Assembly: GCA_017610385.1 (NCBI GenBank)
Contig: JAFCCC010000003.1
Coordinates: forward strand, 1-64,000
DNA from: Candidatus Nanohalarchaeota archaeon
Lineage (GTDB): Archaea; Nanohalarchaeota; Nanosalinia; Nanosalinales; JAFCCC01
DNA length: 64,000 nt
Direction: 5' to 3'
The position numbers and the translations under genes are program-made. The first letter of the stretch is position 1. Each line of letters begins with the position of its first letter. The notes under the pieces are model-generated. The model worked only from the letters and a program-made list of their open reading frames with translations, did not search any database and had not been told where the DNA came from. Below, in pieces: positions 1,513 through 27,012 of the stretch.

Positions 1513-2328
1513 TTATAAATCATCTAAAGGACTTTGAATATTTTTTAATTTGCTGTTTGCAACATGAGTATAAATTTGGGTTGTTTGTAATCTTGAATGA
1601 CCCAACAAAGTTTGTATATATCTTATGTTTATTCCTTTTTCCAATAAATGGGTTGCGAAACTGTGTCTTAATGTGTGACAACTTACCTTCTTTTTAATGT
1701 TTGCTTTTTTTGCAGCATATTCAAATATTTTTTGAACAGCTTTTATAGAATATTTGTTATTTCTTCCTAAAAATAAATATTTTTGATGCTGTTCAAGCGC
1801 AATATAATTTCTAAGGTCTGGTTTTAGTTTTTCCGGAAGCATAACATACCTTTGTTTATTTCCCTTTCCTAATATTTTTACTACATTTCTTTCAAAATCT
1901 ATATTATTTACTTCTAGATTTACAAGTTCTGAAACCCTTAAACCCAAACCATAGAGACATTTTAATACTAATTTGTGTTTCGTGTTATTTGCAGAATTTA
2001 TTATCTTTTTTACTTCTTCTTTTGAAAGTACGGTTGGAAGTTTATTTTCCCGTTTTGGTCGTTTTATATTTTTACAAATATCTTTTTTTAAGACGTTCCC
2101 GAAAAAGAATTTTAGTGAACTTATGGCCAAATTTGCAGTGATATTGGTATAATGTTTTTTTATAATTAAATACCGAAGATATTTTTTAATATCTCTTTCT
2201 TGAATTTGTGGTATTTCTTTTTTGATAAATTTTAAGAAATCTTTTACAAAATAACTATAAGATTTTTTTGTTTTTTTGCTAAGGCCTCTACAATCCAATT
2301 CGAGTTCCAGTTTCTCAAGTTCGTCCAT
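1513..2328 (-). CDS. tyrosine recombinase, Xer/integron-integrase-like
   Basis: Catalytic R (GLGLRVSEL), K (GKGNKQR), HTLRHSFATHLL, LLGH, Y (QIYTHV); C-terminus SPLDDL resembles IntI ends. Start at MDELEKLELEL (2328) preferred over ORF start 2367 because a TATA-like TTTTTATATATAAA lies between. Confidence 0.9.
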   Translation of the reverse strand: MDELEKLELELDCRGLSKKTKKSYSYFVKDFLKFIKKEIPQIQERDIKKYLRYLIIKKHYTNITANLAISSLKFFFGNVLKKDICKNIKRPKRENKLPTVLSKEEVKKIINSANNTKHKLVLKCLYGLGLRVSELVNLEVNNIDFERNVVKILGKGNKQRYVMLPEKLKPDLRNYIALEQHQKYLFLGRNNKYSIKAVQKIFEYAAKKANIKKKVSCHTLRHSFATHLLEKGINIRYIQTLLGHSRLQTTQIYTHVANSKLKNIQSPLDDL

Positions 2329-2374
2329 ACATACATTTTTAATTGATTTATATATAAAAATGTGCATATAAGTT

Positions 2375-2386
2375 GTTATGTCTAAT
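2375..2386 (+). other. attI-like/first recombination core GTTATGTCTAAT next to the integrase
   Basis: ATAAGTTGTTATGTCTAAT; same GTTAK...AAT core as the downstream cassette junctions; lies between integrase promoter and first cassette. Confidence 0.6.
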
Positions 2387-2399
2387 TTTCTCGGGTGCC

Positions 2400-3044
2400 T
2401 TATAGCTTTTCCATAAAGAAATAGTTCCCAATATGTTCTTTTTTGCCTGCAGTCATGGTAATCAATTTGGCTTCAATTATACGAAAATGCGACTCAAATA
2501 ATTGTTTCATTTCTTCAAATGAAGAATAATATAATTTTGTTCCAGCAGGCATTTTTGCACCTTCAGGAATTATTCTTAAATCTTTACCTTTCGCTCCGAA
2601 ATCAGGATTTTGATTATTGAAACAAATTGATAGATATTTTCCTTTTTCATTCAAAATCCTTTTAATATTCTCTAAATATTTGTTTCTTTGCTCAGGTGGT
2701 ATGTGGTGCAAAATTGCCCATTCCAATACAAAATCAAATTTATTATTTATTTCATCTAAATCAGCAACATCAAGAGACATAAATTTGATTTTTACATTAT
2801 GTTTCGCCGCATTTCCTTTTGCTAGTTTTATTGCATTTTCTGAGATGTCTATCCCTGTTACATCAAAACCTTTTGAAGCCAAATAAATAGCATAGAATCC
2901 TTCGCCACATCCAACATCGAGAACTTTACATGGTTTAATTTTTTCACTCTCAATTAGTTTTACTAATTCTTTTGGTGGCTCGGATTCTGTCCAGACTGCT
3001 CCTTCTTCATATATTTCTTCAAACATTTCTTTATCATTACTCAT
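2400..3044 (-). CDS. cassette A: class I SAM-dependent methyltransferase
   Basis: VLDVGCGEGFYAIYLASKGFDVTGIDIS motif; bracketed by IR TTTTCTCGGGTGCC (2386-2399) / GGCACCCGAGAAAA (3088-3101). Confidence 0.88.
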   Translation of the reverse strand: MSNDKEMFEEIYEEGAVWTESEPPKELVKLIESEKIKPCKVLDVGCGEGFYAIYLASKGFDVTGIDISENAIKLAKGNAAKHNVKIKFMSLDVADLDEINNKFDFVLEWAILHHIPPEQRNKYLENIKRILNEKGKYLSICFNNQNPDFGAKGKDLRIIPEGAKMPAGTKLYYSSFEEMKQLFESHFRIIEAKLITMTAGKKEHIGNYFFMEKL

Positions 3045-3085
3045 AATTTAGTTAATTGTTCCATATTATATAAAATTAGTGATTG

Positions 3086-3182
3086 ACGGCACCCGAGAAA
3101 ACTCTGCGGTTTTTTGCTACGCAAAAAATCCCCAAATTCTGACTTCGTCAGAACTTCAGATAATCGCGATGTTAGTTGTAAT
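3086..3182 (+). repeat. attC-like junction A/B
   Basis: Hairpins TTTTTTGC-TAC-GCAAAAAA and TTCTGAC-TTC-GTCAGAA, then TAATCGCGATGTTAGTTGTAAT. Confidence 0.7.
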
Positions 3183-3192
3183 TTTTGGGCAA

Positions 3193-3555
3193 TCAAATAT
3201 AGACTTCGATTTTTTGTTTAGAATATTCTTTCTTCAAAAAATCTAGTTTATCTTTATCTAGAACTTTTTTCCTTTTCATATCAAATAGCAATATGTTTAT
3301 AAAATCGTCAAGAAACGGTTCGGCAAATGCTATCTGAAATTGTTCACTATTTTCCAAAATTAATTCTTTTATAATATCAATAAAATTTTTTGGTTGTTCA
3401 ACCAGATGAACAATTTCAGGCAAAGCTCCTAATATTTGCTTTTCAAGCTCATCCATTAACTTTTTATCCGCATTTGCCATATCAATACGTTCTTGCAGTG
3501 TTGATCGCTCTACATATAGACCTACAACCTTCTTGACGATTTCTTTTGAACCCAT
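3193..3555 (-). CDS. cassette B: hypothetical protein
   Basis: 120 aa ORF; bracketed by TTTTTGGGCAATC (3182-3194) / GATTGCCCAAAAA (3593-3605). Confidence 0.7.
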   Translation of the reverse strand: MGSKEIVKKVVGLYVERSTLQERIDMANADKKLMDELEKQILGALPEIVHLVEQPKNFIDIIKELILENSEQFQIAFAEPFLDDFINILLFDMKRKKVLDKDKLDFLKKEYSKQKIEVYI

Positions 3556-3592
3556 ATTATAATGTTAATTTTAAAGTTCTTATATATCTGTC

Positions 3593-3802
3593 GATTGCCC
3601 AAAAACTCTTCGGGATTTTTTGCTTCGCAAAAATCGTTGCACTATCCCTCGGTCTTTTCTATGAAAAGACGCAACTAACAGGAATTTAACGGTTCCGAAA
3701 CCTTGCAGGTTTCTACACCCAAATTTGATTTTCCAGCTCTGTTCCGCCTTCGGCTCCACGAGGGAAAATCAAACTTCGCTTAATCCTGATGTTATACGAC
3801 AT
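3593..3802 (+). repeat. attC-like junction B/C (long, possibly composite)
   Basis: Hairpins GATTTTTTGCTTCGCAAAAATC, GTCTTTTCTATGAAAAGAC, AAACCTTGCAGGTTT; CAACTAACAGGAATTTAACG ... CGCTTAATCCTGATGTTATACGACAT. Confidence 0.72.
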
Positions 3803-3850
3803 TCGCTCGCAGGCACAAAATTATTAAATGATTTAAGTTAACTAATTTTT

Positions 3851-4369
3851 ATGGATGATAAAACTAGAAAAAAGATTGAAGAATATGCAAAATCAATGAG
3901 ATGGACACCTAAAGATTTTTATTGGAAACATGCATTTATGGTTAGAGAATTCGCTCTAATGATTCAAAAAAGAGTCGGCGGAGATAAAGATATTGTTGAA
4001 GTTTCAGCACTTTTACATGATATTGGAAAATCAAAATTGCTCGGTCCTAAACACGAGGAAATTAGCGCAAAATTAGCAAAGGAATTTCTTGAACAAGTAG
4101 GATTTGATATAAATAAAATCAAGAAAATTGTCGAGTGTATAGAGTATAAAAATTTTAAGTCTATTGAAGCAAGAATTTTGCGCTCCGCCGACTCTATGAG
4201 TCTACTCAGGGACAAGGAAGGTCAAAATTGGTATTTTAAGACTATCTTAAAGAATAATAATGAGCGAATTCTCAAAGAGCTAAAAAAATCTTATTCTGAA
4301 ATTGAGTTTGATTTTGCAAAGAAGTTTGTTGAAGAAAATTACAAAAAATTAGTTAAAAAATATGAATAG
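3851..4369 (+). CDS. cassette C: HD-domain phosphohydrolase
   Basis: VSALLHDIGKSKLLGPKHEEISAKLA HD motif. Confidence 0.85.
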   Translation: MDDKTRKKIEEYAKSMRWTPKDFYWKHAFMVREFALMIQKRVGGDKDIVEVSALLHDIGKSKLLGPKHEEISAKLAKEFLEQVGFDINKIKKIVECIEYKNFKSIEARILRSADSMSLLRDKEGQNWYFKTILKNNNERILKELKKSYSEIEFDFAKKFVEENYKKLVKKYE

Positions 4370-4370
4370 A

Positions 4371-4445
4371 GTGCCTGCTCGCGGACGCTGCGCTTAAAAT
4401 TCTTTCTGAATTTTACACTCGTATATCCCTAACGTTAGACGTAAT
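4371..4445 (+). repeat. attC-like junction C/D
   Basis: GTGCCTGC (complement of GCAGGCAC at 3809-3816), hairpin AAAATTCTTTCTGAATTTT, CCCTAACGTTAGACGTAAT core. Confidence 0.65.
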
Positions 4446-4502
4446 CGTAAGAGATGCCTACAAGAAAGAAAGATTTATTAATGCCCCAATTTTACTAAAT
4501 TT

Positions 4503-4985
4503 ATGGAGAAAAAAACACTTTTAGATTTTATAGCAAGGGCACACAGACATACTTATGCCGCACCAAAAGAAGTCAGAAAACAACATAGGTGTGAGGTGCC
4601 CATTCAAGAAGGTCATAAAGATTATGAATTTGTAGAAGGAGATTTAAGATATCACGATTCCTATGCAGGAAGCCAGTGGGCACCTGGAAGAGAAGTTGTT
4701 TTCTTTCAAGGAAATCCTATTTGGTGTATGGCATATCAAGGACAGCATAATTCAAAATATAATGACGCTTTTTTCCACGAACAAGCATTTCCATTTTTGA
4801 AAAAAGCTTTAATGAATTTTGATGACAGCATGCCTTTTAGAGGTCCTAAAGAATTCTCAGATGGTGCTTTCAAATATACTTTTGAAATGGAAGGAAATTA
4901 TGATTATTTCAAAGGGCAAGAGAGAATTCTTTACAAAGGAGAAAGTGTTTTTTTCCAAGATGTTATGGGTTCATTAATAACATAG
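4503..4985 (+). CDS. cassette D: DUF5680-like protein
   Basis: 160 aa; RAHRHTYAAPKEVRKQHRCEVP...YHDSYAGSQWAPGREVVFFQGNPIWCMAYQG recognised from memory as DUF5680-like. Confidence 0.65.
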   Translation: MEKKTLLDFIARAHRHTYAAPKEVRKQHRCEVPIQEGHKDYEFVEGDLRYHDSYAGSQWAPGREVVFFQGNPIWCMAYQGQHNSKYNDAFFHEQAFPFLKKALMNFDDSMPFRGPKEFSDGAFKYTFEMEGNYDYFKGQERILYKGESVFFQDVMGSLIT

Positions 4986-4990
4986 AACGA

Positions 4991-5165
4991 CATCTCTTAC
5001 GACTTCTTCGGAGTTTTTTCAAAACTCCTCGACCACGCCTTGCAGGCTCTCCTTCGGATCGGGGGCAATTAACAGCAATTAAGAGGAAAATCCCTTGCAG
5101 GAATTTTCCCAAATTTGCTCCACTCCGTTACGCAAACTTCTTATAATCATGATGTTATACGATAT
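4991..5165 (+). repeat. attC-like junction D/E (long, possibly composite)
   Basis: CATCTCTTACGA (complement of 4445-4456), hairpins GGAGTTTTTTCAAAACTCC and GCCTTGCAGGC, CAATTAACAGCAATTAAGAGG ... AAACTTCTTATAATCATGATGTTATACGATAT. Confidence 0.72.
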
Positions 5166-5216
5166 TTGTAATTGTGCATAGCAAATTTTATAAAATTAAT
5201 AAATAACTATATTTTT

Positions 5217-5477
5217 GTGAGACATGAAAAAAAAGTTTGGCCAGAATATTTTCAAAAAATCCTTGATGATAAAAAAACTTATGAGCTTCGTCTTGCTGAT
5301 TGGGAATGCAACGAAGGAGATATTTTAGTTTTGCGGGAATGGAATCCGGAAACTAAAGAATACACTGGAAGAGAAATTGAAAAGAAAGTTACTTATGTTG
5401 GCAAAACTAAAAATTTTACATTCTGGCCAAAAGAAGATGTTGAAAAATATGGTTATCAAATCATAGCTTTCAAGTAG
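5217..5477 (+). CDS. cassette E: small DUF3850/ASCH (PUA-like) domain protein
   Basis: KVWPEYFQKILDDKKTYELRLADWECNEGDILVLREWNPETKEYTGREIEKKVTYVG; GTG start at 5217 (VRHEKK) preferred. Confidence 0.75.
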   Translation: MRHEKKVWPEYFQKILDDKKTYELRLADWECNEGDILVLREWNPETKEYTGREIEKKVTYVGKTKNFTFWPKEDVEKYGYQIIAFK

Positions 5478-5481
5478 AACG

Positions 5482-5550
5482 GCACATTACAAACGCTAAA
5501 GAGGACGCTACGCTCCAGAAACTTCTCATAAGCCTGGTGTTATACGCAAT
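5482..5550 (+). repeat. attC-like junction E/F
   Basis: GCACATTACAAA (complement of TTTGTAAT.TGTGC at 5165-5177), AAACGCTAAAGAGG, AAACTTCTCATAAGCCTGGTGTTATACGCAAT. Confidence 0.72.
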
Positions 5551-5566
5551 TTTTCGATGGGCGGAT

Positions 5567-5896
5567 CTAGTGTGGGAACAAAATCTCTGCAAGAATCCCT
5601 AGTAAAACAAAAAAACCTAAGATTGTAGATATAAATATCAAAACAGAATAATCTTTCTTTTTTGTAATGCCAATAATACCGCAAAAAAAAGCAGCAATAC
5701 CAGAAAAGAACCCGACTAACATCGGCAAGGCTATTCCAGGTCTAACTAGAATATCCTGTGGTATTGTTCTCCCAGCTGGAATAGATTCATAAAGATCTAC
5801 AAAGGATATGCCGATATAAATAAATATTGGCGTAAAAACAAGTAATGCAAATGATAATTTACCTAAATTACTCTTTGGTATAAACTTTATTTTCAT
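5567..5896 (-). CDS. cassette F: small multi-pass membrane protein, unknown
   Basis: 109 aa, three hydrophobic stretches; bracketed by TTTTTCGATGG (5550-5560) / CCATCGAAAAA (5967-5977). Confidence 0.7.
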   Translation of the reverse strand: MKIKFIPKSNLGKLSFALLVFTPIFIYIGISFVDLYESIPAGRTIPQDILVRPGIALPMLVGFFSGIAAFFCGIIGITKKKDYSVLIFISTILGFFVLLGILAEILFPH

Positions 5897-5966
5897 ATTC
5901 TAATAAGAAATATTAATGAGACATATTATTAAGTAAATAACTGTTTGTTTTGATACTATCCCTCGT

Positions 5967-6015
5967 CCATCGAAAAACTTCTTCCGCTTCGCTCCAGAAA
6001 CTTCTCTTCCAGATT
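5967..6015 (+). repeat. truncated terminal attC-like element
   Basis: CCATCGAAAAACTTCTTCCGCTTCGCTCCAGAAACTTCTCTTCCAGATTT matches left/middle of junction E/F but lacks the GTTATACG core. Confidence 0.6.
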
Positions 6016-10282: not shown

Positions 10283-10394
10283 AGCCCCAGGCGAGATTTG
10301 AACTCACGACCTTTACCTGATTGGCGCAACTGGTTACCAAGGTCTAGCGGGATTGGGTCTTATCCTAACGCTCTACCAGCTGAGCTACTGGAGC
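10283..10394 (-). tRNA. tRNA-Thr(GGT) with two introns (10344-10366 anticodon stem; 10319-10334 anticodon loop 37/38)
   Basis: Acceptor GCTCCAG/CTGGGGC, discriminator T, D-arm GCTC/GAGC, spliced anticodon arm TTACC-TTGGTAA-GGTAA, T-arm GTGAG-TTCAAAT-CTCGC; 73-nt mature product. Confidence 0.9.
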
Positions 10395-26306: not shown

Positions 26307-26939
26307 ATGAAAATTTTTGCGGTAGGAGATCTTCATGATCAGGAAAAAGTAGAAAAAGGAATTTTAAAGGAGTTAGAGACTGGTGACTATGAGCTTTTTA
26401 TTGGTTTAGGGGATTATACAAAGAAAAAGTATTTTGAAGACCTAATGAAAAAAATTAAAATCCAAAAAGCTTGTTTAACTGGTAATTGGGATTTTAATTT
26501 TAAAATGCCGGAAAATGGATCTATTCCAAATTTGTTTAATTTTGTGAAAGTTAATTTAAAAGCAAAAGACGGAGAATACAAAATAGTTTTATTAGGAGCA
26601 CAAATTCCACCGGATTTCCAAAAGGACATTAAGGACTGGTTAGATGATTTTGATCGCTCTAAATTAATTATTTGTTCACATTATCCTCCCTATTTATTAA
26701 GAGATCTTGCTGAGAATGGAGATCATGCTGGCATTAAAGAATTTCGGGACACTATCCTAAGATTAAAGCCTGCATTGTGGTTGTGTGGACATATCCATGA
26801 AGCTTCTGGATTCACTAAATTTTTGAGAACAACAATATTAAATGCTTCAGCATGTGATATAAATTATAAGCCAATTCGAGCAGGATATTCCATTGATATA
26901 AGTGAGAATGGCATTACGATTCAGGAGATTAAACTTTAG
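26307..26939 (+). CDS. metallophosphoesterase
   Basis: MKIFAVGDLHD... GLGDYTKKKYF... TGNWDF... SHYPPYLLRD... CGHIHE. Confidence 0.85.
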   Translation: MKIFAVGDLHDQEKVEKGILKELETGDYELFIGLGDYTKKKYFEDLMKKIKIQKACLTGNWDFNFKMPENGSIPNLFNFVKVNLKAKDGEYKIVLLGAQIPPDFQKDIKDWLDDFDRSKLIICSHYPPYLLRDLAENGDHAGIKEFRDTILRLKPALWLCGHIHEASGFTKFLRTTILNASACDINYKPIRAGYSIDISENGITIQEIKL

Positions 26940-27012
26940 GGCCTGTAGATCAGTCTGGTAGATCGCTACCTCGGCATGGTAGAGGCCTCGGGTTCGAATC
27001 CCGACAGGTCCA
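26939..27012 (+). tRNA. tRNA-Ala(GGC), intronless
   Basis: GGGCCTG/CAGGTCC with G3:T70, anticodon arm CTACC-TCGGCAT-GGTAG, T-arm TCGGG-TTCGAAT-CCCGA. Confidence 0.92.

Follow-up and report, generated by a model that had tools for sequence, protein, structure and literature searches.

Why should every gene cassette in an archaeal array be bounded by an inverted repeat that fits only its own two ends? The question is raised by a stretch of 64,000 nucleotides from a Candidatus Nanohalarchaeota archaeon (assembly GCA_017610385.1, contig JAFCCC010000003.1, positions 1 to 64,000), hereafter called the window. It contains a tyrosine recombinase gene, followed by six cassettes, A to F, which extend to about position 6000. 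The two segments of each repeat are called the left and the right arm. We consider it likely that these arms are a third stem, outermost and specific to the cassette, of the attC recombination site in its folded state. Once a cassette is circular, its ends would be brought together, and the right and left arms would pair, thereby closing the attC hairpin at its base, beneath the R''/R' box. Such a stem would form when the cassette is a circle or when its ends loop together. The work is throughout a comparative sequence analysis of assembled genomes, and at that level it establishes the geometry of the arms, their specificity for their own ends, their occurrence in two domains of life, their joint change and their absence from the gammaproteobacterial integrons examined.

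Inverted Repeats at the Cassette Ends of the Window

The arms, all given on the plus strand, are perfect inverted repeats of 14 nt in cassette A (2386-2399 with 3088-3101), 13 nt in B (3182-3194 with 3593-3605), 12 nt in D (4445-4456 with 4991-5002) and 11 nt in F (5550-5560 with 5967-5977). Those of E match over 12 nt with one bulged T in the left arm (5165-5177 with 5482-5493). In cassette C, the arms (3802-3816 and 4371-4386) are perfect over 8 nt only (3809-3816 with 4371-4378), which is borderline if this cassette is taken alone. An earlier note on this DNA had listed the coordinates of the twelve arms, all of which proved correct.

In all six cassettes, the left arm begins exactly 11 nt past the G of GTTATACG, directly after an 11-nt R' box of the GTTATACGCAA type. 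Cassette C differs in that its perfect match starts another 7 nt inward. The R' boxes, all in the same orientation on the plus strand, are GTTATGTCTAA in A (2375-2385, with the crossover presumably after the G), GTTAGTTGTAA in B (3171-3181), GTTATACGACA in C (3791-3801), GTTAGACGTAA in D (4434-4444), GTTATACGATA in E (5154-5164) and GTTATACGCAA in F (5539-5549). The array consists of tandem cassettes with one site each, as integrons do, and the same holds for a related locus with four cassettes (L068; relatives are designated by such numbers). At the right ends, the arm does not directly adjoin R'' but is followed by a CTYTTC-type hairpin element.

In a 6 x 6 matrix of left arms against right ends, the matches on the diagonal measured 14, 13, 8, 12, 8, and 11 nt for A to F, and those off the diagonal at most 6 nt. 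Thus, each left arm matches its own right end only, and the arms are unique to each cassette within the window, as the earlier note had claimed. Its description of the arms as private is nevertheless a relative one, as some arm sequences recur elsewhere on cassettes with unrelated genes (see below). Chance inverted repeats in AT-rich DNA have to be considered, and cassette C alone would be compatible with them: in dinucleotide shuffles, 8 nt or more matched at precisely this offset with a probability of 0.04. A match of at least 11 nt had a probability of 0.0025 per site, and this length was reached by four of the six sites in this one array. With the large contrast between own and cross pairs found elsewhere (see below), chance is refuted for the whole set, and what probability it retains is negligible.

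Related Arrays in DPANN Archaea

Loci of relatives were found via the recombinase in DPANN archaea and in bacteria of the Candidate Phyla Radiation (CPR). In the phylum of L068, a 13-nt R' pattern had 64 matches in 53 of 377 genomes as against 3 for the reversed pattern, and a search with the R' pattern across the window's own small phylum gave no match. Viral contigs yielded four relatives of the recombinase only, all of them distant. Of 60 DPANN sites chosen by R' alone, 16 showed a perfect inverted repeat of 12 nt or more at offset 11, compared with 0-3 sites for almost all offsets that lie outside the arm. Among DPANN candidates from Nanoarchaeota-type genomes, chosen by R''/R' complementarity alone, arm matches of at least 11 nt were present in 37 of 252 own pairs and in 14 of 7456 cross pairs (Fisher's test, p = 6e-45). 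Candidates chosen by the R box, here and in the bacteria below, include false positives, and some overlapping loci were entered twice.

The geometry in DPANN archaea is that of a 9-bp R box, followed by AA on the left, and by a hairpin-folding element of 33-73 nt on the right before the right arm is reached. The order R''-L''-L'-R' that characterizes attC sites is present, with R'' complementary to the R' of the same cassette over 8 nt in cassette B of the window and over 9 nt in many relatives. A second, inner inverted repeat was observed as well. A stretch located approximately 35-50 nt inside the left end pairs with a stretch within the right arm, often around GGGGC/GCCCC (L029, L068, L130, L150, and L175; offsets 35-42 among the 60 sites). 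With this inner repeat, pairing of the ends may proceed in two stages.

CPR Bacteria and Gammaproteobacterial Integrons

In CPR bacteria, the recombinase was found in 98 of 241 genomes (Magasanikbacteria and relatives). Here, the right arm mostly ends 3 nt from R'', and a 9-bp R''/R' box is followed by a conserved 2 x 2 mismatch (AA/CA) and then by a stem of 10-20 bp. In a pairing profile of cassettes chosen by R box and attC consensus, positions 9 and 10 were paired in 14 and 10% of the cases, respectively, and positions 11-21 in 55-67%. Cross pairs mostly gave 25-33%, and the 53% at position 11 arose because most arms start with T. Arm matches of at least 11 nt were found in 31 of 146 own pairs vs. 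9 of 3421 cross pairs (p = 7e-37).

The gammaproteobacteria served as a control. In 119 candidates found by array-specific patterns, there was no match above 8 nt beyond the R box, and five IntI arrays showed the R box only. The R-box match itself measured 9 bp in both the DPANN and the CPR sets, and in gammaproteobacteria it reached about 11-12 bp. The figure of ~7 bp that the earlier note gave for bacterial cassettes is therefore too low; the R box was also treated as 7 bp, with 4 variable bases, in a paper published in mBio in 2017 (PMC5371416).

The earlier note proposed that the attC of a circularized cassette would have a basal stem that is extended and specific to the cassette, and this is supported by the comparisons of own and cross pairs in both groups. 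In CPR bacteria, this stem is contiguous with the R box. In DPANN archaea, contrary to that proposal, AA on one side and the hairpin element on the other lie between the stem and R''/R'. In this reading, the complete unit comprises a 9-bp cassette-specific R''/R' box, a conserved unpaired step (AA vs. CA in CPR bacteria and AA vs. the element of 33-73 nt in DPANN archaea) and an arm stem of ~11-20 bp.

Many CPR recombinase genes (L326, L328, L334, L337-L342, L344, L348, and L349) lie no more than a few hundred bases from the end of a contig, on the side that faces the array. Cassette arrays thus appear to break assemblies and to be undercounted. A 17-mer common to L032, of the Magasanikbacteria, and a Fibrobacter genome (L293) was dismissed as a chance match within a coding gene.

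Joint Change and Apparent Reshuffling of Arms

The earlier note had suggested that the arms of homologous junctions be examined for covariation. The two arms of related cassettes indeed change together: TAAATTTGAAGTCC/GGACTTCAAATTTA is found in one case and TAAATCTGAAGTCC/GGACTTCAGATTTA in another, each arm being matched by its own partner, and the same applies to the differing arms TCGAGAATGAGTC and TTGAGAATGAGCCC. These jointly changed arms (TAAATTTGAAGTCC, TAAATCTGAAGTCC, TCGAGAATGAGTC, and TTGAGAATGAGCCC) are located on cassettes without detectable gene similarity, so that an arm can be reused. A plain Xer/dif reading, with recombination of double-stranded DNA, was set aside because covariation within cassettes is seen both for R''/R' and for the arms. 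Identical or almost identical arms also occur on unrelated genes with different R boxes (L029, L130, and L138; L068, L132, L197, and L184), and homologous genes carry different, yet self-matching arms (cassette A of the window and L196; L123 and L157; L163 and L164). Arms and genes seem to be reshuffled among cassettes.

Cassette D, which encodes a DUF5680 protein, is also found in L088, L263, and L264, with ~92% protein identity, both arms intact and different flanks. Homologs with at most 74% identity showed no cassette ends. As judged from this sequence comparison, cassette D has moved from genome to genome together with its arms, as the mobile cassettes of integrons do. The copy in L265 is a decayed half-cassette, which has lost the left end, the R' box and the left arm but has kept the right arm, the element and R''. 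The hairpin of its element shows a compensated change, from GGAGTTTT/AAAACTCC to GGAATTTT/AAAATTCC.

Could the arms be a scar of the birth of a cassette? An attC element inserted into the palindrome or the terminator hairpin of a gene would have left one half on each side, without any present function. Once joined, the arms would indeed make a perfect palindrome centered between A and T, and group IIC introns are known to insert into attC sites and terminators by targeting hairpins. However, the compensated arm changes, the identical arms on unrelated genes and the unpaired step that is conserved at positions 9-10 across many independent cassettes of CPR bacteria point to pairing that is maintained, and such an origin as the whole explanation is improbable.

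Folding, Stability, and Strand

The predicted attC sites of circular cassettes were folded on each strand, as the earlier note had recommended. In each of the six cassettes of the window, the arms are paired in the folds of either strand; as F no longer has an attC, an approximate stretch of downstream sequence stood in for it. In 16 relatives, the arms added about 10-13 kcal/mol to the circle when compared with scrambled or absent arms. The junctions in the array have no such gain and lose 10-15 kcal/mol relative to the circle. A third stem would, in this way, mark and stabilize the circular cassette, i.e., the form that integrates, relative to the array junctions, where neighboring arms mismatch.

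The arms might instead act in the array. The ends of one cassette would then pair across the gene in single-stranded DNA, loop the gene out and join the flanking crossover points for excision. Linear single strands offer identical pairing, and each cassette matches itself and not its neighbors. With array junctions 10-15 kcal/mol worse than the circle, own-end pairing would be the stronger one there, too. However, the two ends would have to pair across 0.2-3 kb of single-stranded DNA. That the arm exactly adjoins the R box (3 nt in CPR bacteria) is what would be required for a continuous attC stem, although looping out would show it as well. We regard this alternative as unlikely, albeit less so than a scar.

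The triloops of the DPANN attC sites offer an indication of the strand. On the top strand, 47 are of the type TNC and one is GNA, whilst the gene parts contain mostly other types. TNC on the top strand reads GNA on the bottom strand, and mini-hairpins of the d(GNA) type, of which GCGAAGC is an example, stand out among DNA hairpins by their exceptional stability. The bias favors folding of bottom-strand DNA, and the arms, too, would presumably pair on the bottom strand as single-stranded DNA. Bacterial integrases use the bottom strand (PMC8946536).

This bias also bears on the possibility that the arms are transcription or RNA elements, i.e., a terminator, part of a promoter or an RNA stem. Hairpins adjoin the arms, and on inspection TATA-like stretches were seen just inside some of them. 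Yet the triloop bias fits bottom-strand DNA rather than RNA, and the position of the arm is set by the R' box and not by the gene. Moreover, the genes enclosed by the arms point in either direction (24 forward and 22 reverse), and a terminator or promoter function was rejected because of this. Altogether, such a role is very improbable.

Several observations weigh against a third attC stem. First, a perfect arm of at least 10 nt was present in only 18 of the 60 DPANN sites. Second, the idea that the recombinogenic fold becomes more probable through the arms found no support, since its probability is ~0.6 with or without them; by that measure, they are not needed for the fold. Given that the arms stabilize the circle and leave the fold probability unchanged, the stem would separate the circle from the array by stability and not by foldability. 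Third, the strand bias is weaker in CPR bacteria, where 8 TNC and no GNA were counted among 22, which is the same direction but in small numbers. Finally, the attC sites of the window are incomplete, with R'' unrecognizable in A and E, a truncated site in C, a mismatched R box in D and no site after F; the array may be partly decayed.

Genes and attC Remnants in the Window

The window is archaeal: Pus10 is encoded at the left, and, as read from the translations, SRP54-like and replication factor C-like open reading frames (ORFs) are located further along. Cassette A contains an ORF for an S-adenosylmethionine-dependent methyltransferase (2400-3044, minus strand; PF13649, E = 4.9e-24). Its attC region (3102-3171, plus strand) lacks a recognizable canonical R'' and contains hairpins with TAC and TTC triloops. 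The ORF of B encodes 120 amino acids (3193-3555, minus strand) and matched no family. The right arm of B is followed, on the plus strand, by the hairpin element of about 66 nt that reaches up to R'' (3606-3670), by R'' itself (GCAACTAAC, 3671-3679), which is complementary to its own R' over 8 nt, and by the rest of the attC, from L'' to L' and the crossover G (3680-3791).

The remaining features are on the plus strand, unless indicated otherwise. Cassette C encodes an HD-domain protein (3851-4369; PF01966, E = 1.2e-12). Its attC appears to be deleted except for a remnant R'', CGTATA (4420-4425), the flank of which matches that of an intact attC in L023. In D, the DUF5680 ORF (4503-4985; PF18931, E = 4.3e-24) lies between arms of which the left one is identical in L088, L263, and L264, and R'' (CAATTAAC, 5066-5073) has lost complementarity to its own R'. 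Cassette E encodes a DUF3850/ASCH-like protein (5172-5477; PF12961, E = 1.3e-17); the listed TTG start overlaps the left arm, and the true start is probably the ATG at 5224. The ORF of F encodes 109 amino acids (5567-5896, minus strand) and matched no family. Beyond the right arm of F, the attC is decayed and the array ends. Elsewhere in the window, a tRNA match spans 112 bases (10283-10394), as against 74 bases for another one (26939-27012), and is probably an intron-bearing tRNA gene.

The Recombinase and attI

The recombinase gene (1513-2367, minus strand) encodes a tyrosine recombinase of the XerA/integron-integrase type, in which the insert specific to IntI is missing. It belongs to the XerA family, with 271.7 bits for NF040815 (XerA_Arch; cut-off 220), and scores 235.8 bits for the integron integrase model TIGR02249, which is below the cut-off of 265. 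The IntI-specific I2/patch III region is not present: 13 residues separate the aligned blocks, compared with 57 in VchIntIA (2A3V). The distance between the conserved boxes I and II is 86-94 amino acids in most relatives, with few exceptions (79-112), and 133 in a true IntI (L081). Relatives from the same order gave only weak matches (best E = 9.3e-16).

In a recombinase tree of 55 rows with a midpoint root only, a branch with 98/95 support unites CPR, many DPANN and Fibrobacterota rows without I2 with the patch-bearing IntI clade (100/100). The window clade and L029 attach below this branch, and other DPANN rows without I2 are found near Xer. The deepest split, on which the side of the window recombinase relative to XerA rests, is weak (51/54). 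With this support and this root, the I2-less integrases would form a grade below or around the patch-bearing IntI.

The recombinase gene adjoins the first cassette in the window and in L023, L025, L029, L058, L060, L068, L088, and L032, and this neighboring I2-less recombinase presumably acts on the arm-bearing attC sites. A putative attI region stretches from the start of the recombinase to the first crossover, G^TT (2340-2375, plus strand); hairpin-like attI regions are located at the equivalent place in L052, L060, L068, and L088. In these four loci, the putative attI upstream of the recombinase takes the form of an inverted repeat, for example CTATTTCCCG...CGGGAAATAGGTG^TTA, whereas attI sites of bacteria have direct repeats.

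Relation to Known Systems and Significance

Like the bacterial integrons of class 1 and of the chromosomal Vibrio type, these arrays have tandem cassettes associated with a tyrosine recombinase, a presumed G^TT crossover and hairpin attC sites of the order R''-L''-L'-R' with own R''/R' complementarity. They differ in that the own-end complementarity of gammaproteobacterial cassettes ends at the R box, whereas here an extra stem of 11-20 bp follows. Archaeal XerA (NF040815; structures 4A8E and 5HXY) belongs to the same sequence family and equally lacks the IntI insert, but the window recombinase sits beside a cassette array. The TTAT-type half-site after the crossover resembles a Xer arm. The sites of pdif modules are double-stranded and 28 bp long; dif sites and pdif modules differ from the DPANN and CPR arrays, which have hairpin attC sites and cassette-specific stems.

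Cassette arrays with attC sites have been described in archaea, including Nanoarchaeota (Ghaly et al., 2022; PMC9668308). The IntIs reported there have the IntI-specific domain, which the window recombinase lacks, and most of the archaeal arrays are clusters of attC sites lacking integron integrases (CALINs). Neither arms nor I2-less recombinases are mentioned in the main text of that paper, in which the terms "inverted repeat," "complementar," and "stem" are absent, and no published description of such arms was found in the openly accessible literature.

The evolution of integrons poses a chicken-and-egg paradox, as the attC sites, and likewise the I2 domain by which they are read, would each have had to arise without the other (Escudero et al., 2016; PMC4792948). 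The I2-less recombinases next to attC arrays are candidates for the missing state before I2, or for its loss. Tentatively, the DPANN and CPR lineage of integrons might recombine hairpin attC sites without I2, by means of a long cassette-specific third stem with a conserved mismatch step, and thereby preserve or parallel an intermediate between Xer and the classical integron; this we consider possible rather than probable.

The same arm design is widespread, recurring across DPANN archaea and CPR bacteria with integrases that do not possess the domain regarded as the hallmark of integron integrases. If the arms are indeed a third stem, the attC site has a part that is invisible to current models, which end at the R box, and the arms would give a sequence rule by which both ends of a cassette can be located exactly. 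The CALIN label of most archaeal arrays may then reflect recombinases without the domain that the search tools demand, and the presence of I2-less recombinases beside real attC arrays would make the chicken-and-egg question directly testable.

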